Positions 3,017-34,419 of a stretch of 40,512 bases of DNA are shown here, one piece after another. A program made the position numbers and the translations under genes. The DNA is from a virus. The DNA is taken from positions 1 through 40,512 of IMG/VR virus record IMGVR_UViG_3300017772_000033. One strand, 5' to 3'. Positions within the stretch are counted from its first letter, which is position 1; the number at the start of each line of letters is the position of its first letter. Below the pieces are notes generated by a model. It had not been told where the DNA came from. It was given only the letters and a program-made list of their open reading frames with translations, and made no database searches.

Positions 3017-3199
3017 GCTTGCGTGAAGCTTTTCCAGCGTTTAGGAATAGATACGGTCCAACTCGTCATTGGACTTCCCATCTGCAAGTCTCCCTTAGAG
3101 AGGTATCGGACAACGCTCAACGTCCGGTGCCTCTCTTTTTTGGGAGGCTACACGATAGATGTTGACTCTGTCAGGCTCCTCCTTACCATCCGGCGCAGT

Positions 3200-4243
3200 A
3201 TGACGATTACCCGGAGAGACAGCAGTTACCAAGTCTATGTGTGCCGTGGGGCACGTCGTTGGAGGAAGAGCGTAGCTACAGAGCAGCTAGCCCGCCTCCT
3301 AGAAGCAGAGTGGCGTCTAGCCCTACTGCAAGGAAGAGAACCTGTGATTGAATCAGATGAAGAAGTATCGGAGGAGTCTACGGATTCCAGTTTAGGGTGC
3401 ATGGCCGAACGCACTTTCAACCTCTATTGGGAGGGCACTAAGGGTGCGAAGACTGCCCGGTCCAACATCAACGACATCGTGAGGTTGGTGGGGGATGACT
3501 TGTGCATCACCAAGCTAGATCAGCGGGTGGTGAACGACCTGCTGAGTGAGCTGAGGGCGCGGGAGCTTTCCCCAGCCAGCATCAATCGGAAGATGGCAGC
3601 TCTCGGGAAGGTGCTCTCTCTGGCTTTTGAGGAGGGGACTATCGAGAAGCGGCCTAAGCTGCCGAGGCTGAAGGAGAACAACCAGAGGACCAAATGCTTC
3701 ACGCAGGAAGAACTCGACAGCATCTACACCCACATGGAGACCAACGGCCACAACGATGTGGCTGACTTCTGCCGGTGGCTAGTCGAGACAGGGATGAGAG
3801 TCTCAGAAGCTCGGCGCATTAGCTGGGAGAACTCAGGTATGAGGGACGGGGTATCCAGGGTCTACCACACCAAGACAGGGGATCCACGGTCCCTCCCGCT
3901 CACATCAACCGCTCGGGACCTGCTGTGCAAGCGTCACGAACGGCAGGTTGCTATGAAGCAGTCACTCTTAGACGCCACTCCCTGGGAGTCGGTGAGTCAG
4001 TCCAGGCTGACGTATGTATGGAACCAAGCACGGGAGAACCTGGGTATGACGGATCCTGACTGTGTGCCTCACTCACTCCGTCACACATGCGCTTCCCGCC
4101 TTGCCCGTAGCGGTGTGGATCTCCTCTCAATCAAGGAATGGCTAGGACATCGCACCTTGGCGATGACCCTCAGATACAGCCACCTAAGTAAGAATCAACT
4201 ACAGTCAGCCAAGCAGGCTTTGGAGGTATGGAGCGATGAATAG
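3200..4243 (+). CDS. int: Tyrosine integrase / site-specific recombinase
   Basis: A tyrosine recombinase that would integrate and excise phage DNA at att sites. Start taken at ATG 3200 (MTITRRDSSYQVYV...), giving 347 aa with a typical N-terminal arm-binding domain; the frame is open to a GTG at 3023, but those extra 59 residues do not look conserved. A SAM-like core-binding domain follows (roughly residues 70-165). The catalytic domain shows the full set: Arg in ETGMRVSEARR, Lys in YHTKTGDPRS, the H-x-x-R box HSLRHTCASRL, the His of LGHRTLAMT and the nucleophilic Tyr in LRYSHLS. All catalytic residues are present, so it should be active. It overlaps the next gene by eight bases and heads the transcript leading to the phage RNA polymerase, the position seen in other temperate T7-like phages. 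Confidence 0.95.
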   Translation: MTITRRDSSYQVYVCRGARRWRKSVATEQLARLLEAEWRLALLQGREPVIESDEEVSEESTDSSLGCMAERTFNLYWEGTKGAKTARSNINDIVRLVGDDLCITKLDQRVVNDLLSELRARELSPASINRKMAALGKVLSLAFEEGTIEKRPKLPRLKENNQRTKCFTQEELDSIYTHMETNGHNDVADFCRWLVETGMRVSEARRISWENSGMRDGVSRVYHTKTGDPRSLPLTSTARDLLCKRHERQVAMKQSLLDATPWESVSQSRLTYVWNQARENLGMTDPDCVPHSLRHTCASRLARSGVDLLSIKEWLGHRTLAMTLRYSHLSKNQLQSAKQALEVWSDE

Positions 4244-20616: not shown

Positions 20617-21198
20617 ATGTGTTTGATAACAGCAGCAGTTGCAGGCACGGCAGTAGCCGCCGCCACAGCGAACATGGCAATTATGGCGGTCATCACAACC
20701 GGCATTCAGATGCAGCAGCAGAGAGCTAATGCCAAGTCCATGGAGAGAGCAGGCAAGCAGAGGCAAGCCGAACAAAAGCAGATCAACGATGCAAACGCTA
20801 TGAGTCAGTATGCAGCTATCGCTGATGCAGACCGGGAAAAGGAGATTGCGATGTCGGCCAAGAAACGAGCTAATCAGCTAAAGGCAGATGAAGCTCGGGC
20901 GTTTGCTGTGAGTCAGGCTGGCGAGACTGGGGTGAAAGGTCAATCCGTAGGGTTAATGCTGGATGACCTGGACAAGCAGGACTCAGCTTTCGTCACAGCT
21001 CTAGACCAGCAGGAGATGTTTCAGAACGCACAGTTCATTAGGCAGGGTGAGCGCATCCGAGCGGGTCATCAAGCCGGGTATCTGGCAGCTGTTCCTGATC
21101 CTGTCCCACAGCCTAACTACTTGCAGGGCATCGTGAACATCGGCAGCACCGCGCTAGGGACTTACATTGATGCTGGTGGCACGTTTGGAGAAGACTAA
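20617..21198 (+). CDS. Internal virion protein B (T7 gp14-like)
   Basis: A 193-aa ejection protein (T7 gp14 is 196 aa). A hydrophobic N-terminal segment (about residues 3-28, Ala/Ile-rich) would insert in the outer membrane after ejection. It is followed by a long Gln/Ala/Lys coiled coil (about 32-130) and a short Pro-containing C-terminus. Gp14 forms the outer-membrane part of the channel through which T7 DNA enters the cell. The start lies three bases after the gp13-like stop, and the stop overlaps the next start. Confidence 0.9.
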   Translation: MCLITAAVAGTAVAAATANMAIMAVITTGIQMQQQRANAKSMERAGKQRQAEQKQINDANAMSQYAAIADADREKEIAMSAKKRANQLKADEARAFAVSQAGETGVKGQSVGLMLDDLDKQDSAFVTALDQQEMFQNAQFIRQGERIRAGHQAGYLAAVPDPVPQPNYLQGIVNIGSTALGTYIDAGGTFGED

Positions 21199-24100
21199 TG
21201 GCAAGTAAAAAGAGAGCTAAACTCCGCAGGCTAGCGGATCCTGAAACTGTTTCTAGAGCACAACCTTTAGGAGACATTTCCAGGCCCGTAAACACAGACT
21301 TCGTGCTTCCCCGCATCAAGCCGAAGATCCGAAATGTGACGGACCTGAGTCAGTTGAGTGCGACTGTTGGTAAGGCACTAGCTGTCAAAGCTCAGATAAA
21401 GACGAAGAAGGAGGAGGATGAGGACCTTACTAAAGGTCAGGCTTTCTATAGGGCGCACCCGGAGTTCCGAAAGAATCTAACTACATTTGCCAATGCTGTA
21501 GAGGCTAGGTTAATTGACCCCACTACTCGACCTATGTTTTGGCGGGGGATGGCTGAGGCGCATGGTCAGCAGGTAGTTCAAGATTTTGCCAACCCCGACA
21601 CGGGTCCCCTAAACGATCTCGAAAATAGCCTCAGTAGCCCTGACCGTGAGGAAGGCGTAACCATAGACGGTGAGTTTGATCGCGTCTGGGCAGAGGGTCC
21701 AGGGAAGCTAACGGATACTGACTCCCTTAGAGTAGTCAACGGATTGTATGCCAAGCTCAAGAGCAACTTCGTGGCGAGAGTTGGGCAAAAATACAATAAT
21801 AACGTAGCGGAACGCAGTCAGTCATTAGAGGTCAATAACATAACTGGGGGTTTGACCGCCAGACTAGCCCAAACTCCCGGCAATCTAACACCTGAAAATG
21901 CTCAAGAGTTAGCTCGACAGTTAGAGGAGAAAAGAAATACAGGTAATTTGGGGGATCTCTCAGCAGATGCCGCGATGCACCGTGGGGGTATGGCGTATCT
22001 CGACAGTCTTAACCCCCCCACCGATGGGAACCTGTCTGCTACCGAGCAGCTGGAACACATCGATATGGCACTCGATGCGGCTCGGTCGTTTTTGGGGGAC
22101 GGAAAGGAGAATAAGGGTCTGGTCGTAGGAACTGACGTAATTGGAGGGAAAGGCTTCCGTAGCGTTTACGTCGGTGGGGGTAACAAGGAACAGATTAAAC
22201 ACCGGGGAGAATTGGAGGCTTTCATCAACGATCGGGAAAGTGATCAGAGGACGTTAGAAAGGGAACAGGATCGGCAAGGGATTGCAGCTCAGAACAAGTC
22301 CACGACGATTATGAGGCAAGTGGAGACCAGCCTCGCCCTGATGCAAGCGAGGAACCCTCAAGGTCTGAGGAATGTGGCTACAACAGTCGCAGGCATATTT
22401 GAACAGGCACAAACAGATAACCTGTCTAATGAGGATCTGACGAAGAAGCTCCAAGAAGTCTTTGGAGAGAACCATTGGGAGCTAAAGCAGACTGAAGTTG
22501 TCAATGCTGACAAGGTTTCGAGGGGTCTGTTCGTGGCAGGTCTACAAACCTCATCCAGAAGTATTAGACAGGAGCCAACAGATGAAGCTATTAACGCCGA
22601 AGCTGCTTTCCGTGTGAGTGTAGAGGATAACGACTTTCGAGGTGCGAGAGACATCCTGGATCATTCCCCTTTCTCTGTCGCAGAGAGGACCAGACTTGAA
22701 GCAGTACTCCGTAAAGCAAAGTCTGCGGCCAGCGCACATGAAGATCCAAAGGTGAACCCCTCGTTCCTAATAGCTAAGGGCCGAGTGACAGAACAGGATA
22801 AGAGGTTTGCAGCTCTGGGTCTGGGTCTGACCCCTACAAACAATGCGCTAGTAGGTGAGCTGGGACGTAAGCGCGATGCTCTTTGGGACCGAGTCTACGA
22901 AGGTTTGCTTGAAGATGCCGAAAGGGCGAGCGGCCAGCTGCGCGAGCTGAGTGAGTCTAATGTTACTCTATCAGGAGTTGTTACTGACGCCCTGATGAGA
23001 GAGGCGTTGAACCGCACTCCCGAATATCAGGAGATACTTGATGAAATTGACGGGGTATACAAAACAACGGAAGATACTCAAAATAAGAATGCTAGGGATA
23101 TTCGCGACAAGTTGGATAAGGGGGAAAAGCTAGGCAAGGATGAGCTTAACAACCTGCTGAGTGAGGGAGGTATCTCTCAAGCCCAACACAGTCAATTGGA
23201 TGCAGCTAGCCGTAGGTTGAATGGGAAGACTGCGGTGGTAACGCAAAAGACAATCGAGTTTGCTGAGCTGTTAGCAGACATCACCGCCAAAAGACCGTTG
23301 AATATAGCAGGAGTTGTTACCGATCAGACAGTGACCGCCGCTTTTACGGAGAGCCACGAACATGCCAAGCTTGCTGTGAGGGACTTTGTGCAGGAAGCGG
23401 CTAACAACATAGTCTTAAGTTACGGCGATAAAGCCTGGAACGCAGCCGATCTTAAGAACGCGGTTGATAACCACCTCAGACAGAAGGGTGTAATCAATGC
23501 GGCAAAGCAGGTGTATAAGGACGCTTTTGAGGGTCGTAAGGACAAAGCATCAGCTCCAAAGCCAGCCTCTAAGGACGGAGGGGAGGTTGAAGTGGCGTCC
23601 ACTGAGGCACCCACCCGACCTCAAAGTATGACCGATGAGGAAGTGTCTCTTCGTGAGTCCTCAATGAATTATGTGAAGGGATCAGAAGCTAGCCCGGAAC
23701 AAGGTAACTGGGAGGCTCTACAAAGAGTCCGGGTTATGAACCCTGAAAGCGGCGTGGATAGTGCAAACCTCTTCGGTCTTGGCCCGAAGTTTATGAGTCA
23801 ATTCCCCTCGTCTTATGATTGGTGGTGGGATGATACTCAAAGCTTTGCAATGGAGGAGATTCTGGGTAGGGCTTTAGGCAGACTTACAGATCCTGGAACA
23901 GACTGGTCTAAAGTGAAGGAAGTTGTTCCTGTCCCCATTGCTGAAGGGTCAGAAGTGGTGATGGACATCTCGAACGTCGTGTTGGGGGGTCCTACACCCA
24001 GGCCCCCTAGCGGTAGTGTGGATATTTATAATCCACCATTCTTCACACCGAGTCGTACGATTGGGAATACGATTACCTTGAATCCTTCTTTAGTGAAGGG

Positions 24101-25058
24101 TGTAGTTCCTAAAGGTTCAAACATATACATCAATACCCACCGTTCTCCCTTCCTATACAGCAGCCCTACTGGTGAGTTTGCGTCGGGCGGAGCAGGGGCG
24201 CAGGGTATATTCTCAGCCCTGATGGGCGAACTTTACAGTCCAGAGCTGGCCGATAGTGAGAACCTGACAGAATCACTAAGTGGTCCGGTGTTAGGTAAGG
24301 TAGCCGCTCATTCCGGGGCCAAAGTTACGCGATCACTAACCGTAAAAGGCTTCAGCAAGAACAAAAAGCTCCCTTACTCCGATTCAATGATATCGGAAAG
24401 AGCAAGGGCTGAAGGGTTTGGACGGAACATTGCCCCGCACTACCAGGAAGTCGGGGGTAACGGGATGGCTGATGTAGAAACTCTAGCTCGTCACTCTATC
24501 TCTGAGATGTTGATGTCGGATGATCCAGAGGCGGTTTCAAAAGCTCAGCAAATGAGTCGCGTGCTAGTTATCCCCATGTCATGGGTCATCAATAGGAGGG
24601 CGGAGGTAACAGTAGAGACGAAGCTATTAGCTGAAGTGTCCGCTAGTAGGACGCCGTCGTGGGAGCCTCACGTAGGAGTGCCAAGATTCAATCGCAATCC
24701 TGAGCCGCACACAGACGTGGACTTGCTGATCAGCACTACATACAGCTTCCCCTATAATAATGACCCTGAAGAGACCCCAGACGAGAAGCGGACGGACATC
24801 TGGAAAAGCCGGAACTTCAAGAACCTAGCTCAGCTTGATAAGCTACTTTCAGATCCTTCTACGTATGACGAGAAGACTGGTTCCTTTGTAAAGGGGAGTG
24901 AGCCTGCTCAATTTTTGAAGGCCCAAGGACTCAACGTCACACCGGAAGTGACAGCGGCCTACATTAAGATGCAAGCGTATCTGATTGCGCCATTCGACCC
25001 TTCGGCAAACGAGGATACCATGTCCCGCTTTGTTGGGACTATGCGTAGCACGAAATAG
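21198..25058 (+). CDS. Internal virion protein C-like giant (T7 gp15 position)
   Basis: A 1286-aa protein, much longer than T7 gp15 (747 aa). It starts MASKKRAKLRRL with a basic N-terminus and is mostly helical through about residue 800, with repeated Glu/Lys/Gln-rich coiled-coil segments. The early segment YRAHPEFRKNLTTFANAVEARLIDP (about 83-107) resembles the gp15 N-terminal region. From about residue 800 the composition changes: a Pro/Ala/Ser linker, then a beta-rich section with Gly/Pro/Ser and Tyr (about 890-1100) I cannot assign. No lytic transglycosylase or other catalytic motif is apparent. By position it would be a periplasmic part of the DNA-ejection channel. The C-terminal extension may carry an unrecognised effector domain. 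Confidence 0.8.
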   Translation: MASKKRAKLRRLADPETVSRAQPLGDISRPVNTDFVLPRIKPKIRNVTDLSQLSATVGKALAVKAQIKTKKEEDEDLTKGQAFYRAHPEFRKNLTTFANAVEARLIDPTTRPMFWRGMAEAHGQQVVQDFANPDTGPLNDLENSLSSPDREEGVTIDGEFDRVWAEGPGKLTDTDSLRVVNGLYAKLKSNFVARVGQKYNNNVAERSQSLEVNNITGGLTARLAQTPGNLTPENAQELARQLEEKRNTGNLGDLSADAAMHRGGMAYLDSLNPPTDGNLSATEQLEHIDMALDAARSFLGDGKENKGLVVGTDVIGGKGFRSVYVGGGNKEQIKHRGELEAFINDRESDQRTLEREQDRQGIAAQNKSTTIMRQVETSLALMQARNPQGLRNVATTVAGIFEQAQTDNLSNEDLTKKLQEVFGENHWELKQTEVVNADKVSRGLFVAGLQTSSRSIRQEPTDEAINAEAAFRVSVEDNDFRGARDILDHSPFSVAERTRLEAVLRKAKSAASAHEDPKVNPSFLIAKGRVTEQDKRFAALGLGLTPTNNALVGELGRKRDALWDRVYEGLLEDAERASGQLRELSESNVTLSGVVTDALMREALNRTPEYQEILDEIDGVYKTTEDTQNKNARDIRDKLDKGEKLGKDELNNLLSEGGISQAQHSQLDAASRRLNGKTAVVTQKTIEFAELLADITAKRPLNIAGVVTDQTVTAAFTESHEHAKLAVRDFVQEAANNIVLSYGDKAWNAADLKNAVDNHLRQKGVINAAKQVYKDAFEGRKDKASAPKPASKDGGEVEVASTEAPTRPQSMTDEEVSLRESSMNYVKGSEASPEQGNWEALQRVRVMNPESGVDSANLFGLGPKFMSQFPSSYDWWWDDTQSFAMEEILGRALGRLTDPGTDWSKVKEVVPVPIAEGSEVVMDISNVVLGGPTPRPPSGSVDIYNPPFFTPSRTIGNTITLNPSLVKGVVPKGSNIYINTHRSPFLYSSPTGEFASGGAGAQGIFSALMGELYSPELADSENLTESLSGPVLGKVAAHSGAKVTRSLTVKGFSKNKKLPYSDSMISERARAEGFGRNIAPHYQEVGGNGMADVETLARHSISEMLMSDDPEAVSKAQQMSRVLVIPMSWVINRRAEVTVETKLLAEVSASRTPSWEPHVGVPRFNRNPEPHTDVDLLISTTYSFPYNNDPEETPDEKRTDIWKSRNFKNLAQLDKLLSDPSTYDEKTGSFVKGSEPAQFLKAQGLNVTPEVTAAYIKMQAYLIAPFDPSANEDTMSRFVGTMRSTK

Positions 25059-25063
25059 AATCT

Positions 25064-28000
25064 ATGGGTAACTGGTATAACGAATCTTCCCAAGCTCCCC
25101 AAGCTCCCCAAGCTCCCCAAGCTCCTGAAGAGAAGATTGAGGAGTTTGGCTTTTTCGATCATGTGGGCGATCTGGCTATGTCAATCCCTCGCGGGGTCGA
25201 GGGGATGGTCCAAGATGTCTATGGACTTGCCGATACTCTGACGGGGGACATCCTCCCTGACTACGATCAACGTCTACTAGGCGAGAGTGAGACGTTCGCT
25301 GGTGGCATGATCGAGGGGCTTGCCAACTTCGCATCTGGTTTCATCCCGGTTGTGGGGTGGGTAGGTAAAGGTGCGAAGGTGGGTCGATCACTTACGCTAG
25401 CTAAGGGCCTGACAAAGGAAGCCCAGGTTCTTGCAAAGGCTGCGGGTAAGTATGGAGTTCGGGGTTCCACGAAGGCAGGAGTGCCAATTCTAGGGAACGC
25501 CGGTATCGATGTGACTCGTGCGGCGGTTGCTAGTGCGATTACAGACTTTGCGGTCTTCGACGGACACGAAGCGCGTCTTGCTAATCTGATTCAGTCTGTC
25601 CCTGAGCTGGCTAACCCTGTTACGGAGTTTCTGGCTGCGGATGACTCGGATGGAGAGATCGAAGGCCGACTCAAAGCCATGCTTGAAGGCTTCGGGTTAG
25701 GGTCCATCATCGACACCTTCATCCTCTCAGTTAAGCACTTCAAGGGCTACAAGATCGCCAGGGCTGAGGGAGCATCTCCCCGCGAAGCCCAGAATCGTGC
25801 AGACGAGGCTGTGGACCCGAAGCAGATTCAGACTGCAATGAATGCTGCGAGACACGGGCCAAATCCAGATGACCCTTACTCATTTGCACGGCTCGTAGAT
25901 GATGAAGATGAGATCAACACGAATGCTGGGCAAGGACCTACTGGTGTATACAAAGGCACGAGCGGCATCAATGGTGAGGGCGGGCTTAGCAAGCGTAGCC
26001 AGCTAAACCACATCCGTAACTTGGCTTTGATGGGGGCTAGGCAAGGTGAAGTTGGTAAGGAGTGGTATGAGAAGTCTGGTCAAGAGATCCTAAAACTGAC
26101 TGGTGGTAATATCGACGAGGCTGACAAGATCGCTCAACTTGTTGCAGTGTTCTCTCCTCAGACGGGGGTTGAGGCTAACTTTGAACGGGCACTTCGCGCT
26201 TACTACATGGCGAAGAGGGTCAACAAGACCACGTGCCTCCGGGAGAAGTCGCAAATCAACACGTCGGTCATGCAGGAGCAGGCTGCGGCAATCCTCTACG
26301 ATGACCAGTGGCTTCCCGATGTCGTTAGACACTTGGGGGTGAAAGGCGAGCACATCAACCGTGGTGCTGGTCGGAAGATTTCCAACTTCTACAACGACAT
26401 CATGTCGGGGATTGATCCAACAAGGACTAGGGTCAAAGGCTCCACGATGGATATGTGGATGTCCCGCTACTTTGGGTTTGCTCCTACTAAGGGGTCTACT
26501 GGAGGGTCCGAGTGGAAGGTGACCAACGCTCAGTATGACTACATGCAGCGGACGGTGAAGTCAGTAGCCGACGAGCTAGGTTGGGAGCAGCACCAAACAC
26601 AGGCTGCAATCTGGTCCTACGCTAAAACACTCTGGGAGTCCATGACTGGTGAAGTTGAGACTCTTGCTGAAGCTGCGGGGCTGAAGCGGAACAAGAAGGG
26701 CAACTTCGACCTTAAGAGCAACGTCGAGTATGGGAACTTCTATCAGGATCAATTTCAGAAGCGTCTGAATGTTGAAGCAGGAGCTTCTCAGAAGTTTGCA
26801 GCTGCTGAATCATTTGACTTGAGCAGCTTGCTGCGTAAGAAGTCGATTGTCCTCCCTGACACATCCATCCCTTCACAGGGTTCCGGGATCCTTGAAGGAC
26901 TTCACCACGCTTCTTGGGAAGAGAAGGTGCAGTTCCAGGCGGATATGGAGCTAGCCCGTGTTGGGGACCAAGGTCAAGATCTCATTGAAGAGGCTTTAGG
27001 GTTCGGCTCACGGTCGAAGGTTGATCCTTCAGATGCAACGCTCATGCCTGGGCCTGCTTCTAAATCTGGGACTGTGCAGGACAGGGTTAAGGGTAGAGGG
27101 AGTAAGAGCGATCCAGCTGCGCGTTCCCAAGCTCAGGCGTATGCGATGGTCGAAGGTCTTTACCACGGGCGAGGAGTTGTGCAGGGTGTGCAGATTCTGC
27201 GTGGTAAGCAGATCCCCAAGAAGTCCGCTAACGCTTTTGAGATCACGTTAGGACGCAGGCGTGGTGATGGGGATCTAGAAGCTATTCAGCACGCTGTGAA
27301 GTCAGCTTTTGGATCCAGGAAAGTTACGGTCATCCCTTTAGATGACGGGTTTGCCCTGCTTTCCGAGGGTAAGTTGAAGGGACTCCCATTCGTCAAAGAG
27401 TCGGAGAAGATCCTGGCTGACCTCAACCTTCCAGAATCCCAGTTAAGTGGTGAGCATGTTTTTGCTGACCACTTTCGAGTTGATAGTAAGACCTCAGATG
27501 GAAGTGGATTTAGGAATCTACTAGAGAAACAAGGACATGAAAAAGCTCTCAAACGGTTGGATGATGTTTACGGACCTAATGTCGCAGACACCCAGCGGAA
27601 ATACCAAGGCAAGGGCCACGGAGATGCCCCTCGAAAGCCCGGTTCCGAAACCGGCCCAGATGGCACCCCAGGAGGATCCCCAGCCAAGTCCCAGCCCGAT
27701 GGTCCAGCCCTCGACCGAAATGCCGCCCGCCTTGAAGACCTCAGAGGAAAGCCCATTGCCGTCAACTCCGATGGAACAATCACCCTCTACCATCGAACCA
27801 CCAAAGAATCCGCTCAGCGGATCTTAGACACCGGAGTCTTCCAGCCGGGGTCTTTTGATAAAGATGGTAAGTTCCAACCTTTTGATAAGGATACCTACCC
27901 AGCAGCTAATGAAGGGACGCAGCGGCGTATGGAAGGAACCTTCTTCAGTAACCTGGAGCAGGGCCATGCCGATGGTTACGGGTCTTCGGTCGTTTCTATC

Positions 28001-29026
28001 AAGATCGATCCAGCTCACGTAGAGTTGGATGACGCCTTCCATAACGGTGAGATCCATGTTCGAGTGGGTCCTGATGAACTCGGATCGGCATCGGTTGTAG
28101 GTGCCAACGATCCCAGGTTCACTCCTGAGCAAATTGCAGCCGCTAGCAAGACTAACATTGCTTGGACCACTACTGCGGTATCCAAGGCAGTTCTCAAACT
28201 TGCGGCGTCCTTCATGCCTGATGGTGGGAGAATCTTGGATTTCGGGTCGGGTAAGTGGGGAACGGAAGGGGCTGCGCCTGGGTGGGACAAGAGCCGTTAT
28301 TACGGCAACCCTATCGAGGCTATGGGCTACAAGATCGACCTATACGACTTTGAGGTAAACACAGGTCCGCATCACAACCCCAATGCGCTAGCCGAGCAGT
28401 ATGACTTGGTCATGGCTAGCAATGTCCTGAATGTTCAGGGTGCAGGAGCACGCACTTTAGAAGATGCAGTGAGGATGCTTGATAACACCATTGAAGAGAT
28501 CGCTAAGTCGGTAGACAGCGGAGGTAGAGCAATCGTCAACCTTCCGGTGGATCCGCGAAAGAAGGCGTTTGACGGGCTGTCGCCAGAAGGAGGTAAGAAG
28601 TCTGAGAAGCAGAGGACTCAAGCAGAGTTCTTGCGGGGTAAACTTCTTCAGCGTTTTGGGCGAGTTGAACTTGTCAGCGGTAAGATGACTGCTGCTCCAG
28701 TATTCATGGCTTCTAATAAATTGGCTGACCCTCACATCGATGGGATGCTACATCCTAAGTTCGAGGAAGCGGCTCCTGGTATCAGCGAGTTTAAGCAGCT
28801 TCTCATCCGCCAAGGTTACTCAATGGATAACCCAGCAGATATGGAAGTAGTTGTTAGAGCCATCCAAAAAGAGTTCGGAGGGGCGATTATGAAAAGCAAG
28901 AAAGGTGGTTCTGACTATCTGTGGAACAAGATGCCTGATGGGACCGAGCTTGATTTTCATGGGGAAGCTATGAATGACGGCAACGGTTGGGACGCAACTA
29001 TTAACGAGAAGGGTGGCTGTCAATGA
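25064..29026 (+). CDS. Giant ejection protein with ART-like and methyltransferase-like domains
   Basis: A 1320-aa protein between the gp15-like and gp16-like genes. It has a QAP repeat at residues 10-21, a hydrophobic/helical N-terminal part (about 30-240), and a helical module (about 300-520) with VFSPQTGVEANFERALRAYY and QTQAAIWSYAKTLWE, resembling modules of phage polyvalent proteins. A Pro/Gly-rich linker follows (about 850-890). A segment at about 905-1010 looks like an ADP-ribosyltransferase: LYHRTTKESAQRILDTG, then GTFFSN, then a Glu in GEIHVRVGPDEL. At about 1040-1170 a Rossmann methyltransferase pattern appears: ILDFGSGKWG (motif I) and YDLVMASNVLNVQ (motif IV). Being among the internal virion genes, it is probably ejected into the host. 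Domain calls are by motif only. Confidence 0.8.
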   Translation: MGNWYNESSQAPQAPQAPQAPEEKIEEFGFFDHVGDLAMSIPRGVEGMVQDVYGLADTLTGDILPDYDQRLLGESETFAGGMIEGLANFASGFIPVVGWVGKGAKVGRSLTLAKGLTKEAQVLAKAAGKYGVRGSTKAGVPILGNAGIDVTRAAVASAITDFAVFDGHEARLANLIQSVPELANPVTEFLAADDSDGEIEGRLKAMLEGFGLGSIIDTFILSVKHFKGYKIARAEGASPREAQNRADEAVDPKQIQTAMNAARHGPNPDDPYSFARLVDDEDEINTNAGQGPTGVYKGTSGINGEGGLSKRSQLNHIRNLALMGARQGEVGKEWYEKSGQEILKLTGGNIDEADKIAQLVAVFSPQTGVEANFERALRAYYMAKRVNKTTCLREKSQINTSVMQEQAAAILYDDQWLPDVVRHLGVKGEHINRGAGRKISNFYNDIMSGIDPTRTRVKGSTMDMWMSRYFGFAPTKGSTGGSEWKVTNAQYDYMQRTVKSVADELGWEQHQTQAAIWSYAKTLWESMTGEVETLAEAAGLKRNKKGNFDLKSNVEYGNFYQDQFQKRLNVEAGASQKFAAAESFDLSSLLRKKSIVLPDTSIPSQGSGILEGLHHASWEEKVQFQADMELARVGDQGQDLIEEALGFGSRSKVDPSDATLMPGPASKSGTVQDRVKGRGSKSDPAARSQAQAYAMVEGLYHGRGVVQGVQILRGKQIPKKSANAFEITLGRRRGDGDLEAIQHAVKSAFGSRKVTVIPLDDGFALLSEGKLKGLPFVKESEKILADLNLPESQLSGEHVFADHFRVDSKTSDGSGFRNLLEKQGHEKALKRLDDVYGPNVADTQRKYQGKGHGDAPRKPGSETGPDGTPGGSPAKSQPDGPALDRNAARLEDLRGKPIAVNSDGTITLYHRTTKESAQRILDTGVFQPGSFDKDGKFQPFDKDTYPAANEGTQRRMEGTFFSNLEQGHADGYGSSVVSIKIDPAHVELDDAFHNGEIHVRVGPDELGSASVVGANDPRFTPEQIAAASKTNIAWTTTAVSKAVLKLAASFMPDGGRILDFGSGKWGTEGAAPGWDKSRYYGNPIEAMGYKIDLYDFEVNTGPHHNPNALAEQYDLVMASNVLNVQGAGARTLEDAVRMLDNTIEEIAKSVDSGGRAIVNLPVDPRKKAFDGLSPEGGKKSEKQRTQAEFLRGKLLQRFGRVELVSGKMTAAPVFMASNKLADPHIDGMLHPKFEEAAPGISEFKQLLIRQGYSMDNPADMEVVVRAIQKEFGGAIMKSKKGGSDYLWNKMPDGTELDFHGEAMNDGNGWDATINEKGGCQ
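25091..25126 (+). repeat. Four tandem 9-bp units encoding Gln-Ala-Pro
   Basis: Four consecutive CAAGCTCCC units (the last ends in T) encode QAP repeats at residues 10-21 of the 1320-aa protein. The near-perfect nucleotide identity suggests recent slippage expansion. Copy number changes would stay in frame, altering only linker length. Confidence 0.9.
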
Positions 29027-32000
29027 GTGCTCAAGGTCCAGTTTGTCGCATCAATACCGTCAGTCCTGATGCGTTAAAGCATGTCGATCAGGATGCTGAA
29101 GCACTCTCTAACAGGATGGCCGCAGATGCGCTGAGAGATCCAATCTCAAAAGCTGTCACGGACATTGATGAGATCACCAAGATGAAGATTGCCATGAACT
29201 CGGATGGCAGTCACTCGGTGGGGACTTCACCAGACAACCCTACTGGCATGCTTCCAGAGGACCTCAAGGTCAAGAAGCGGGGGATGGATCACATCATGAA
29301 CCGGGTCAGGTTCAACCGCAACCTGATCCGAGATGCGGCGAATAAGCCTTCGCATAAGCGGACTAAGTCGGAAGAGAAGCTGGCTGGTCAGATTCTGACG
29401 GATCGAGACCAAAAGATCGTTAGTAGGTTTGCGGAAGCGATGGGCGAATCGCTTTTCGATAACATTCACCTCCGCTTCAGCGACCGAACTTCTGAAGAAG
29501 TGAGGCGGAACATAAGGCCCAAAAGGAATGAGCCACCCTTTGAAGGCGAGTTTAGCTTTCTTGAGGACATCATCACGATCTCATCAAAGGCATTACAGCT
29601 GGGGGCCTTCCACGAGACAATGATCCACGAGATGTGGCACCATATGTCTAGGTATGTGGACGATAAGACAGTTGTAAAGCTTCACAAGCAATACAAGAGA
29701 GACCGTGCTCACTACATGAAGGCCAATCCTGGTGCGGAGGCTCGCGTTCGCAACCGTAAGTGGACACCCGAGGAATACCGATGGGTGAACTTCGACGAGT
29801 GGTTTGCCGAGACCGCGAAGGATAGGTCTCTCGATAAGCTCAAGGATTTTGGCGATAGGGAGCGAAGTGTGATGCTCCATATTAAGCAGTGGATGCTAGA
29901 AATGGTGGCTGCGATCAAATCCAAGTTTGGGTGGGAGCACACCGAGAAACTGGTCAATGACTTCTTCTACCGGAAACCTCAAAATGCTTCCTGGAGCGGA
30001 GCCAAAACTAAATCGATCCTGGTCAACCCCACGGATTGGGCTTTTACTCCAGCCCCAAATAGAACGAAGCGTTCTGGTCAGCCAAAGAACCCCTATAACT
30101 CGCGGACAAGCAAGCATCGCCAATGGGGTTTAGAAGATGGGCTAACAGCTTTTTCAAAGAAGAGGGCGGGTGGTAAGTCAGCAACGAGGGTTAAGAAGAA
30201 TGAGCCTGAAGACGGGCGAATCGGACTTCTCCGTCCTTTAGGACTCGATGAGAATGCAGCTCGTGTCCTCCTAAGTAACGTCGATAAACGCTTGGGGCTA
30301 ACTGCAAAGCTAGGTATCAATCCCCGAGCTAAAGTCAAAGACCCTGATGGGAAGCTAGTATACAAATACTCTAAGGCTGACCTTCTTGACCGCTACCTCA
30401 GCCGTCGTGACCTCAACCTGTCTCACTACTCCGGGCCAGAGGATGCCATTTCAGTTATTCGGACTCACGAAGACTTGTTCCGGTCAGTCATCGGGGAAGA
30501 TGTAGAAGCAGTGAACCCAAGAACTCAGGCACAGCAGCTTGCTGATGCTAGAGAAGAGCTAGGGGTCATGGTGGCTACAACCTCTAAAGATGACCAAGCT
30601 TTGCAAGTCAACATCGAGAGGGGATTGACTGAAGATGTGCGCCAGCTGTCGGAGATCCATGCGCGTGTCTTAGCGTATAAGAATCTTCAGCAGTCGATGG
30701 GGCAGATGATCCTCAAAGACCTACAGAACTTTAAGACGCCTGGAGGCGATTCAAGCGAGGCTATGGCGAGGCTCCACAGCAACGTGGAGTTCATGGCTAA
30801 CCTAACTGCGGGGGTGAAGGGCCTCACCGCGCTACAAGGACGTGGCTTGAGTTCTGGCAATATCCCGATTGAAGGAATTATTGCAGACCCTGCGAAGCTT
30901 CAAGATTTCCTTCAGATGCGGGGCGGAAAGAAAGGCACCGACAGATTGGTGAAGATCCTCGAAACCACTCTGACTGAAGGAAAGATGGATTCCCAAGGGA
31001 TTGGCAGGGTCAACCAGCTAATTAAGCCGAGTGTCGGTAAGCGGGTGATGAACATCACTACCGAATACTGGATCAACTCCATCCTATCAGGAGGTAAGAC
31101 GCTCTTCGTTAACGGGCTAGGCGGGGTAATGATGTCCGTCTACCGTCCAATGGAGAAGATGCTTGGAGCTTCTCTCACACTTAATGGTCAGGCTTTGACC
31201 GACGCGACTGCGGAGCTTACCTACCTGTTTGTCCACGCAAACGATGCGTTCAAGATGGCGTGGAAGTCTCTAAAGCAGGGGGACAACATCCTTGATCCTG
31301 GATCACGAGTCCTCGACCTGCCTGAAAATAACTTCAAAGCTATCTCGGCTAGAGGGGTGGGTCTTAAAGATGACAGCTTGATGGGTAGTGGTGTGAACTT
31401 CTTAGGGAACACCTTCCGGCTCCCTAGTCGAATCCTTACTGGAACTGACGAGTTCTTTAAGCAGCTCAACTACCGAGCAAAAGCTCACAGGATGTTGGTG
31501 CGCGAAGGTATGGGCCTTGGAATGAAAGGCGACGATCTGGCAACCCACGTCCATGATCGCCTTGCCATGATGACCGAGGATGGTCAGGCTTACTCAGCTG
31601 CAACTGCTTACAAGCGAGGAGTCCAAGCTGCGAAGGAATCAGGCATTATTGATCCTGAAGAGATAAAGATATTTGCTCAGAAATACACTCAGAGACCTCC
31701 TGAGCAAGGCGGGTTCGATCACGCCATGAACACGATTTCAAAGGAGTCACTGAAGGTGGCTGAAGAAGTCACGTTTACTAGGGCACTTGCTGCGGGGTCT
31801 ACTTCGGCGGGCATTCAAGCCATGGTCATTCGTCAGCCTTGGATGCGCTTCATTGTCCCGTTCGTTAGGACGCCAGTGAACATCGCTATGACGGCAGGGC
31901 GTCGGTTTGACTTCTTGGGGGCATCGCGGGTTGCTTACCATAAGCTTAGCGGTTCAACCCACCACTTGAGAGAGTCTCAGAATCAGCTAATGAAGGACTT

Positions 32001-33081
32001 CGGTTCTGCTGATCTAGGTAAGAGAGCAGAAGCTGCCGGTCGAGCTGCCGCTGGCAGTATGGCGGCGGTAGTGCTGTATGGGTATGCAAACCAAGGAAGG
32101 ATGACCGGGCGGGGTCCAGCAGACCCTGAGCTACGCCAGATCCTCAAGGATGCAGGGTGGCAACCATACTCCTTCAAGACCAAGGACGGATACGTGTCCT
32201 ACGCCCGAGTTGACCCATTCGCAACAGTCATGGGCACGATGGCAGACATCCACGACTACATCCGCTATTCAGACATTGAGGATCAAGAAGAGCTATCAAC
32301 AGCGTTGACGGGTTTGGTTGTGGCTTTGACACAGAACTTCACAAACAAGACCTACCTCGCAGGTTTGTCTAATGTCCTTCAAGCTTTGGAGCAGCCTGAC
32401 AGGTTTGTGCCAAAGTTGGCGAGAACCTACGCAGCTTCAATGATCCCATTCAGCAGTGCTCAAGGTCAGTCGCTGTATGCCATGGGCGATCCATACATGA
32501 GAGACGTGCAGTCCATGACTGAGGCGTTGATGGCTAAGACTCCCTACTACAGTGACCAAGTCAGGCCACTTCGGAACTTCTTAGGAGAGCCGGTTAAGCG
32601 AGTCACTGCCGCAGGGACAGATGCGATTGGTTCTGTGATGGACCTTTTTCAGCCTATCTCTTACACGCAGTTTACAGATGACACCCTTAAACTGGAGTTT
32701 TTGAAGCTTGGTCACGGGTTTACTCCTCCAAAGCCTATGAAGTATGGGCTGAACCTCACTAATTATGTCAACCCTGATACAGGTCAGGATGCGTTTGACA
32801 GGTGGCAAGAGCTTAACGGGGAGATCAAAATCAATGGCAAGACTCTGAGGGGTTCGATGTTGAGCCTCGTCCGTAACAGCCAATACCAAAAGCTCACCTA
32901 CATGAGTGACCAAAGTGCTGAAAGCCCCCGAATCGGGTTAATTAAGCGTATTTTGGAGGCTTACAAGAAAGTCGCTTTTGAGCAAGTTAAGAAGGAATAC
33001 CCCGACCTTGCCGAAGACTTTGTGAACGTCTTTAATATCAAGAACCTAAGAAAGCGCGGCGTTGTCGCAGGCGGCTACTAA
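29023..33081 (+). CDS. Giant ejection protein with zincin protease motif (T7 gp16 position)
   Basis: A 1352-aa protein (T7 gp16 is 1318 aa), start overlapping the previous stop (ATGA). Residues about 140-320 contain a zincin metallopeptidase pattern: HEMWH at 202-206 (HExxH) and a downstream NFDEWFAE (about 256-263) that could supply the third zinc ligand. A basic linker follows (about 340-400). The C-terminal two thirds is helical, with RLPSRILTGTDEFFKQLNYR, PWMRFIVPFVRTP and the hydrophobic AAGSMAAVVLYGYANQGRMTG (about 1010-1030), a pattern typical of the large polyvalent-protein-associated C-terminal domain (LPD38-like) of ejection proteins. The lytic transglycosylase domain of T7 gp16 is absent, so the protease may replace it. 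It is likely to be the largest internal core and inner-membrane channel protein. Confidence 0.85.
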   Translation: MSAQGPVCRINTVSPDALKHVDQDAEALSNRMAADALRDPISKAVTDIDEITKMKIAMNSDGSHSVGTSPDNPTGMLPEDLKVKKRGMDHIMNRVRFNRNLIRDAANKPSHKRTKSEEKLAGQILTDRDQKIVSRFAEAMGESLFDNIHLRFSDRTSEEVRRNIRPKRNEPPFEGEFSFLEDIITISSKALQLGAFHETMIHEMWHHMSRYVDDKTVVKLHKQYKRDRAHYMKANPGAEARVRNRKWTPEEYRWVNFDEWFAETAKDRSLDKLKDFGDRERSVMLHIKQWMLEMVAAIKSKFGWEHTEKLVNDFFYRKPQNASWSGAKTKSILVNPTDWAFTPAPNRTKRSGQPKNPYNSRTSKHRQWGLEDGLTAFSKKRAGGKSATRVKKNEPEDGRIGLLRPLGLDENAARVLLSNVDKRLGLTAKLGINPRAKVKDPDGKLVYKYSKADLLDRYLSRRDLNLSHYSGPEDAISVIRTHEDLFRSVIGEDVEAVNPRTQAQQLADAREELGVMVATTSKDDQALQVNIERGLTEDVRQLSEIHARVLAYKNLQQSMGQMILKDLQNFKTPGGDSSEAMARLHSNVEFMANLTAGVKGLTALQGRGLSSGNIPIEGIIADPAKLQDFLQMRGGKKGTDRLVKILETTLTEGKMDSQGIGRVNQLIKPSVGKRVMNITTEYWINSILSGGKTLFVNGLGGVMMSVYRPMEKMLGASLTLNGQALTDATAELTYLFVHANDAFKMAWKSLKQGDNILDPGSRVLDLPENNFKAISARGVGLKDDSLMGSGVNFLGNTFRLPSRILTGTDEFFKQLNYRAKAHRMLVREGMGLGMKGDDLATHVHDRLAMMTEDGQAYSAATAYKRGVQAAKESGIIDPEEIKIFAQKYTQRPPEQGGFDHAMNTISKESLKVAEEVTFTRALAAGSTSAGIQAMVIRQPWMRFIVPFVRTPVNIAMTAGRRFDFLGASRVAYHKLSGSTHHLRESQNQLMKDFGSADLGKRAEAAGRAAAGSMAAVVLYGYANQGRMTGRGPADPELRQILKDAGWQPYSFKTKDGYVSYARVDPFATVMGTMADIHDYIRYSDIEDQEELSTALTGLVVALTQNFTNKTYLAGLSNVLQALEQPDRFVPKLARTYAASMIPFSSAQGQSLYAMGDPYMRDVQSMTEALMAKTPYYSDQVRPLRNFLGEPVKRVTAAGTDAIGSVMDLFQPISYTQFTDDTLKLEFLKLGHGFTPPKPMKYGLNLTNYVNPDTGQDAFDRWQELNGEIKINGKTLRGSMLSLVRNSQYQKLTYMSDQSAESPRIGLIKRILEAYKKVAFEQVKKEYPDLAEDFVNVFNIKNLRKRGVVAGGY

Positions 33082-34419
33082 ATGGCATTTTCAAGCACAA
33101 CCTACACTTACTCTGGAAGCCTTACATTTGCGGTCCCTTTTGAGTTCCTTAAAAACGAGCACTTAAAGGCTAAGATCGATGTGGCGGGTTCAGGGACGTT
33201 TACTGCGGAAGCTCGCTTTACTGTAGCGGGTGATGGCAACAGCGTGGCATTTACTGCTGCTACAACTGTAGTAGGGTCAGGTGAAGTAGCATGGTCTTCC
33301 GGGACTACGCTAGTAACGCTTTACCGTGACACACCGCTTGATGCTGCGAGTCGGGTAGTCGAGTTTCAAGCAGGGGCTATTCTGACTGAAGCTGACCTAG
33401 ATAACTCGGCGTTGCAGTCTTTGTATGCCGCCCAAGAGAGCAAGGATGTTGTTGACGGGTCTTTGAAGAAGAACCCTGCCGAAACAGCTTGGGATGCAGA
33501 GTCAGAAAAGATCACTAATGTCACTGATCCCGCCAGTGCTCAGGATGCAGCTACAAAAGCCTACGTTGATGCAGAGGATGCCAAAGCTCTGAATCGGACA
33601 GACCCTGATGTAACTACCACGGACTGGGATGCCACTGGCGAGAAGATTACTAATCTTGGCACTCCTACGGCAGGCACAGACGCTTCAACCAAACTCTATG
33701 TTGATAACGTCACCGCTGTTGCAGGTAACCTCCCAACTGTGACCGGAAGTGATAATGACTCCGGGGTATTTGTGGACAGTGGGGTTTGGTCTACAAGGAC
33801 CCCTGCTCAAAGTCGCGCACACTTAGGTATTCCGTTTGCTGTTGGGACTGGAGCTTCTGTCAATACTGGTGTGGGAGCGGGAGATGTCCCTCTTAACAGC
33901 AGCCTAACGTCTGGAGGAGTTGCGCTCGGATTGCCTATCTCTACATGGAATTGGAGGTTTGTGAGTCCTCTCGTAGAGAATACCTCTGCATCCAACACTG
34001 GCCTGAGAGTTACGCAGAGTGGCTTAACTCACTACAATGGTGGATCGAGCTATGCTGCTAATGGGACAGTGGAAACTGGGTCTAACTACTACAGCGTGGT
34101 CCTTCAATCAGGACTATATTTCTGGTCTTCGTCGTTTGTAGTCCACAACTCACATGCTTCTGAAACCGGGACACTGACAGCAAGCATCCGCAGTGAAGAC
34201 GGGACCACAGAGCATGAGTTGCTAGTAGGCACAATGGATATTGTATCCGAAGGTCGTGTTACAGTTAGCTGTGGCAGGTTAATTGACATTACGAGTGACG
34301 GAACGGAATGGACGCTTTTTGTCGGCAACAAGCAAGCGTCAGGAAATGGCACTCTTACCCTGCTCGGATTTAGTAACACTGTAATCCAAAGCACCCTCAT
34401 TCGTCTCGGCAACACCTAA
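33082..34419 (+). CDS. Tail fibre protein with T7-like N-terminal attachment domain
   Basis: A 445-aa fibre. The N-terminal 125 residues match the T7 gp17 virion-attachment domain: YTYSGSLTFAVPFEFL (about 8-23), repeated beta strands, and LYRDTPLDAASRVVEFQAGAILTEADLDNSALQSLYAAQE (about 90-130). The middle has two copies of a collar-like repeat, ending in AATKAYVDAED and ASTKLYVDNVT (about residues 157-212). The C-terminus (about 260-445) is beta-rich and probably the receptor-binding part. It is a single gene, shorter than T7 gp17 (553 aa). The start directly follows the stop of the gp16-like gene. Confidence 0.93.
   Translation: MAFSSTTYTYSGSLTFAVPFEFLKNEHLKAKIDVAGSGTFTAEARFTVAGDGNSVAFTAATTVVGSGEVAWSSGTTLVTLYRDTPLDAASRVVEFQAGAILTEADLDNSALQSLYAAQESKDVVDGSLKKNPAETAWDAESEKITNVTDPASAQDAATKAYVDAEDAKALNRTDPDVTTTDWDATGEKITNLGTPTAGTDASTKLYVDNVTAVAGNLPTVTGSDNDSGVFVDSGVWSTRTPAQSRAHLGIPFAVGTGASVNTGVGAGDVPLNSSLTSGGVALGLPISTWNWRFVSPLVENTSASNTGLRVTQSGLTHYNGGSSYAANGTVETGSNYYSVVLQSGLYFWSSSFVVHNSHASETGTLTASIRSEDGTTEHELLVGTMDIVSEGRVTVSCGRLIDITSDGTEWTLFVGNKQASGNGTLTLLGFSNTVIQSTLIRLGNT

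Follow-up and report, generated by a model that had tools for sequence, protein, structure and literature searches.

The gp16 locus of a T7-like phage

The IMG/VR virus record IMGVR_UViG_3300017772_000033 (positions 1-40,512, which is the full record of 40,512 bases and is called the window below) carries T7-like phage genes for an RNA polymerase, a primase/helicase, a DNA polymerase, a head-tail adaptor, the capsid, tail proteins, gp14 and a T7 tail fibre. In its ejection-protein cluster, an open reading frame (ORF) of 1320 amino acids (aa) joins the N-terminal module of a gp16-type internal virion protein to a cargo region, in which a compact domain is predicted to adopt the fold of ADP-ribosyltransferases (ARTs). 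The cluster and the modules of this ORF are as follows (E, expect value):

20617..21198, + strand: gp14-type internal virion protein (PF24072 T7_gp14, E 9.5e-18)
21198..25058, + strand: ORF of 1286 aa in the gp15 position (assigned by position; aa 33-218 weakly match gp15 of HTVC041P, E 0.012)
25064..29026, + strand: the 1320-aa ORF, gp16 N-terminal module and multi-domain cargo region (phrog_6651 and gp16-type matches)
26039..26617, + strand: DUF7178 / phrog_3842 domain, aa 326-518 (PF23802, E 2.3e-6, above cut-off; phrog_3842)
27764..28066, + strand: predicted ART-fold domain, aa 901-1001, with His910, Phe960, Ser962, Glu996 and His998 (phrog_6170, AlphaFold2, structural matches, family alignment)
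28106..28783, + strand: possible S-adenosylmethionine-dependent methyltransferase-like region, aa 1015-1240 (motifs ILDFGSG, YDLVMASNVLNV and GGRAIVNLP)
29023..33081, + strand: next ORF, 1352 aa, with the gp16 C-terminal half at aa 562-1348 (ProddE gp16, E 4e-60; HTVC041P gp16, E 2e-46)
33082..34419, + strand: T7-type tail fibre, the downstream border of the cluster (PF03906, E 5e-20)

Residues 14-308 of the 1320-aa ORF match the internal virion protein family phrog_6651 (E 1.5e-12), and aa 36-236 match the gp16-type proteins of ProddE, HTVC041P, S30C28 and S45C18. The cultured relatives ProddE and HTVC041P encode a single gp16-type protein between gp15 and the fibre. In the window, the N-terminal module of gp16 lies in the 1320-aa ORF and its C-terminal half in the next ORF, whose start overlaps the stop of the former (ATGA). 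Both the homology to internal virion protein D (gp16) and the location between gp15 and the tail fibre support this assignment, and the gp16 equivalent of the phage is, as judged by homology, split across two adjacent overlapping ORFs. An earlier reading of the window from its letters alone (the sequence-only reading) had placed an ART-like domain in a virion ejection protein; the phrog_6651 and gp16-type matches agree that it is joined to a module of a T7-type internal virion protein. The two homologous parts resemble T7 gp16, from which the window differs in having two ORFs instead of one and in its cargo of DUF7178, ART and methyltransferase-like region, whereas gp16 is known to carry a peptidoglycan hydrolase (PMC8954989).

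The ART-like domain belongs to a phage family

The motifs singled out by the sequence-only reading, LYHRTT (starting at aa 908, position 27785), TFFSN (aa 959, 27938) and GEIHV (aa 995, 28046), are present where it had placed them, within aa 908-1006 of the ORF, and their similarity to other proteins goes beyond chance. Residues 902-1001 match phrog_6170, a 118-aa phage family annotated without function (E 1.4e-6). A tblastn search of 2.3 Gb matched the domain to 62 mycobacteriophage records (best E 7e-6), and nine IMG/VR contigs match it at 31-45% identity, eight of them across nearly the whole domain. Scanning with a degenerate pattern gave about 25 further loci (individual loci are cited by L numbers). 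Most IMG/VR copies of the domain are part of larger ORFs, from several hundred up to about 3100 aa long, and the phrog_6170 domain is scattered among phage polyvalent-type proteins. All 32 aligned members share D-G-T, T-L-Y-H-x-T and one Gly. No copy was found in 398 bacterial genomes, a search run without a positive control.

The mycobacteriophage relatives are stand-alone proteins of about 115 aa encoded among tRNA genes or arrays (L010, L101, L102). In L101 and L102 the relative adjoins a gene annotated as a nuclease.

Predicted fold

The AlphaFold2 model of the domain, built from an alignment of 32 sequences, has a predicted local distance difference test score (pLDDT) of 86 and a predicted template modelling score of 0.77. 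The best 50 chains found by VIA-align (Z 5.6-8.3) are nearly all ARTs and include the catalytic domain of diphtheria toxin (Z 8.3), RhsP2 (6.8), TreTu (6.5), Tpt1 (6.4), cholix and ExoA; only Agrobacterium protein 6b and a CNFy fragment are not counted among them. A Z near 8 is by itself middling according to the tool's own warning, and the ART fold is persuasive because this list is so uniform and because the sequence profiles agree with it. Foldseek against the PDB placed the Rhs toxin TreTu first (probability 0.91, E 0.12), with the catalytic domains of PARP and RhsP2 among the next matches; similar E values, but at low probability (mostly ≤0.05), were also obtained for several unrelated chains, many of which come from phage tails or baseplates. 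The second match in BFVD is a protein of the mycobacteriophage Silverleaf named ADP-ribosyltransferase (E 6e-6).

Among 37 family members, weak Pfam matches are to Tpt1/KptA (10 members), Tox-ART-HYD1 (9) and ART-PolyVal (3), and also to DRAT and PARP. With hhalign, the strand 1-helix-strand 2 core aligns with the ART lobe of KptA with probabilities of 83% (full family), 92% (a sister clade) and 57% (the subclade of the window). A sequence search of the PDB with the domain alone returned no match, and profiles retrieved only Tpt1 at E >1, besides unrelated chance matches. The structure prediction and fold search bear out the ART-like fold that had been proposed, and the model assigns the domain to the ART superfamily.

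Active site

The strand-1 His910, the putative NAD-holding residue (NAD, nicotinamide adenine dinucleotide), is invariant in 37 of 37 aligned members, for most of which this His was a condition of the search pattern. Its presence in strand 1, and that of Ser/Thr in strand 2 (Ser962 in the window), had been proposed before and agree with the family alignment, and the sequence pattern identifies the domain as a His-type ART. In the sister clade (18 sequences) the His is combined with a strand-2 Tyr and a strand-5 R-x-D. In the subclade of the window it is combined with a strand-2 Phe (rarely Tyr) and a strand-5 E-x-H, the set in the window being His910, Phe960 and Glu996-x-His998. Compared with the H-Y-[EDQ] pattern, Phe960 stands at the strand-2 Tyr, and either Glu996 or His998 could occupy the acidic or Gln site of strand 5.

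The Glu that the sequence-only reading took as catalytic is more doubtful. Glu996 is kept within its own subclade only; the large sister clade has Arg at this column, and its Asp falls two residues further on, at the position of His998. Glu996 is a candidate catalytic residue rather than a family-wide conserved acid. In most rows of the alignment a strand-2 Phe is paired with a strand-5 His, and a Tyr with an Asp (exceptions L006 and L043, with Tyr and His). Such covariation is expected of a single active site, though shared descent confounds it.

With Phe at the strand-2 Tyr site and an ambiguous third catalytic residue, the domain could be catalytically inactive. It would then serve the ejection protein as a spacer, either structural or binding NAD, nucleotides or RNA; the His found in place of the sister clade's Asp is compatible with this, as is an insertion of about 25 residues in the window's domain, modelled at lower confidence. 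We nevertheless consider a non-catalytic role unlikely, as divergent phages have retained His910, Glu996 and His998 (Glu and His of E-x-H in 12 of 12 members in the subclade alignment, one of which, L005, has Arg at the Glu column in the wider alignment). The joint variation of strands 2 and 5 also speaks for a working site, subject to the same confounding.

Relation to known ARTs

The polyvalent-protein ARTs (N4-like/HYD2 family, PF18760 ART-PolyVal; Iyer et al. 2017, PMC5512222) are His-type ARTs like the domain of the window. They too are found in giant multi-domain phage proteins, whose genes accompany virion genes and for which injection is predicted, and some relatives of the window's domain share one protein with PF18760 (L001, L040). 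Their catalytic pattern is H, Y, D, and they are predicted to modify host proteins (PMC5512222). In contrast, the window has F and E-x-H in place of Y and D, and its host protein is a T7-type gp16 and not a virion RNA polymerase, a MuF or a portal protein. PF18760 has no match in the window protein, and the best relative reaches 19 bits against a cut-off of 31.2.

Tox-ART-HYD1 (PF15633), a family known from bacterial polymorphic toxins, is a compact ART of similar size; among the matches listed for the nine weakly matching members, none is above the cut-off. No Tox-ART-HYD1 was found in 249 genomes, the control genomes likewise giving no match. TreTu, the best Foldseek match, is listed apart from this family, and its membership of PF15633 is not assumed.

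The sequence-only reading had also likened the domain to T4 Alt, and this comparison fails: Alt belongs to the Arg-Ser-Glu clade (PMC5512222), whereas strand 1 of the window's domain carries an invariant His. We rejected kinship with T4 Alt or VIP2 (R-S-E) because Tyr-His in place of Arg marks a different catalytic class. Alt is, in addition, a separate head protein, while the domain of the window forms part of a core ejection protein. What they would have in common is the proposed logic of an ART that is delivered along with the DNA to modify host targets ahead of phage gene expression.

The RNA 2'-phosphotransferase Tpt1/KptA (PF01885) shares with the domain an LYHGT-helix-strand-S/T core and the overall fold. 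It differs in that the strand-2 H of KptA is F or Y in the window's family, and the second halves cannot be aligned confidently. PF01885 has no match to the 1320-aa protein, and in the two relatives displayed the match starts no earlier than position 102 of the 177-position profile. The domain might alternatively be an ART-fold enzyme with another NAD+ chemistry, such as hydrolysis of NAD+ or a KptA-like transfer to a small molecule or to a phosphate on RNA. Both sequence profile and fold place KptA/Tpt1 among the nearest proteins, and the position of mycobacteriophage relatives within tRNA arrays, twice beside an annotated nuclease, would suit such an activity. However, the N-terminal lobe of KptA was not detected, and the His-Tyr-Asp of the sister clade is the pattern of the polyvalent-protein ARTs predicted to act on host proteins (PMC5512222), which makes another chemistry quite improbable.

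The domain recurs in other gp16-position proteins

In the T7-like contig L007, genes for T7-type gp12, gp13 and gp14 are followed by an 801-aa ORF, a 1690-aa ORF with the ART domain and the tail fibre; in L008, also T7-like, an ORF related to that of L007 precedes a T7-type fibre. Their ART domain is 33% identical to that of the window, and outside it no similarity between the L007/L008 proteins and the window's protein could be detected. In L040, a 2677-aa ORF adjoining a tail fibre contains the domain together with two stretches of ART-PolyVal, and L001 combines it with PF18760 ART-PolyVal and LPD23 in one protein. On the family tree the gp16-position label requires at least two changes, two of the five rows so labelled relying on weaker context (the downstream tail fibre for L040, close similarity for L050). 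Because the same domain sits in otherwise unrelated gp16-position proteins of L007 and L008, it looks, from sequence comparison, like an exchanged, co-injected cargo.

This recurrence, and the exact position of the ORF between the gp15-position ORF and the gp16 C-terminal half with an overlapping start, make it very unlikely that the 1320-aa protein is absent from the virion and produced only within the host, its gp16 match (limited to about aa 36-236) being residual.

Other regions of the cluster

The DUF7178 module recurs at 35-39% identity in large ORFs adjoining a terminase-like ORF (L021, L022); a literature search found no paper naming it. The assignment of aa 1015-1240 as a methyltransferase is tentative: the region matches the methyltransferase family phrog_24759 (E 0.0029) and, under its cut-off, Methyltransf_23 (E 0.06), its single-sequence model is poor (pLDDT 34), and it has no relatives in the phage collections or IMG/VR and none in the PDB. 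With DUF7178, the ART domain and a possible methyltransferase among T7-type virion genes, the ORF might be a polyvalent protein, but of these domains only the ART has a supported enzyme fold.

The gp15-position ORF (21198-25058, 1286 aa) is about twice as long as gp15 of cultured relatives (530-646 aa) and may, because of this length, carry extra domains too. The N-terminal part of the 1352-aa ORF contains a metallopeptidase-like motif, HEMWHH (29626-29643, aa 202), around which no significant Pfam or PHROG match was found. An integrase gene at 3023-4243 (phrog_1, E 1e-49) suggests that this T7-like phage is able to lysogenise.

Proposed function

The predicted fold, the homology to gp16 modules and the recurrence in an unrelated gp16-position protein are established by this analysis. 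On this basis we think that the domain is probably a compact His-type ART enzyme, carried as cargo by a split T7-type ejection protein, ejected with the DNA and modifying a host target. The 1320-aa protein would be built into the internal core of the virion and ejected into the host together with the DNA. In T7, the N-terminal hydrolase of gp16 acts in the periplasm and the C-terminal part is placed in the cytoplasm (PMC8954989); a domain lying between the N-terminal module and the C-terminal half might be carried into the cytoplasm along with the DNA. There the ART would bind NAD+ via His910 and ADP-ribosylate a host protein or nucleic acid, so that a defence would be disabled or host machinery redirected before phage genes are expressed.

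Several observations weigh against this proposal. The ART domain lies ahead of the gp16 C-terminal half and in a different ORF from that half, and for this reason we can only infer its arrival in the cytoplasm. Foldseek E values against solved structures are all above 0.1. No Pfam ART model scores over its cut-off. Finally, a Phe replaces the canonical strand-2 Tyr, and the identity of the third catalytic residue is ambiguous. A broader proposal, that T7-like phages repeatedly load swappable enzymes on gp16 and that the window contains a new ART subfamily with a His-Phe-Glu-x-His site and a differing chemistry or target, is conceivable but doubtful.

Packaged ARTs are already established (T4 Alt) or predicted (polyvalent proteins). 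A fusion of an ART with gp16 appears undescribed in the searchable literature, whose coverage is incomplete: we found no report of it and no paper combining an ADP-ribosyltransferase domain, Autographiviridae and the virion, and the words gp16, ejection and Autographiviridae are absent from the main texts of two surveys consulted. According to one survey, ARTs are coded by 30% of myoviruses and by only 3% of siphoviruses and podoviruses (PMC9503650). A gp16-fused ART in T7-like phages would extend the strategy of head-delivered ARTs to the best-studied ejection machine, in which delivery, timing and topology are open to testing, and would suggest a function for phrog_6170. If this is true, the phage may chemically modify host molecules at the very start of infection.
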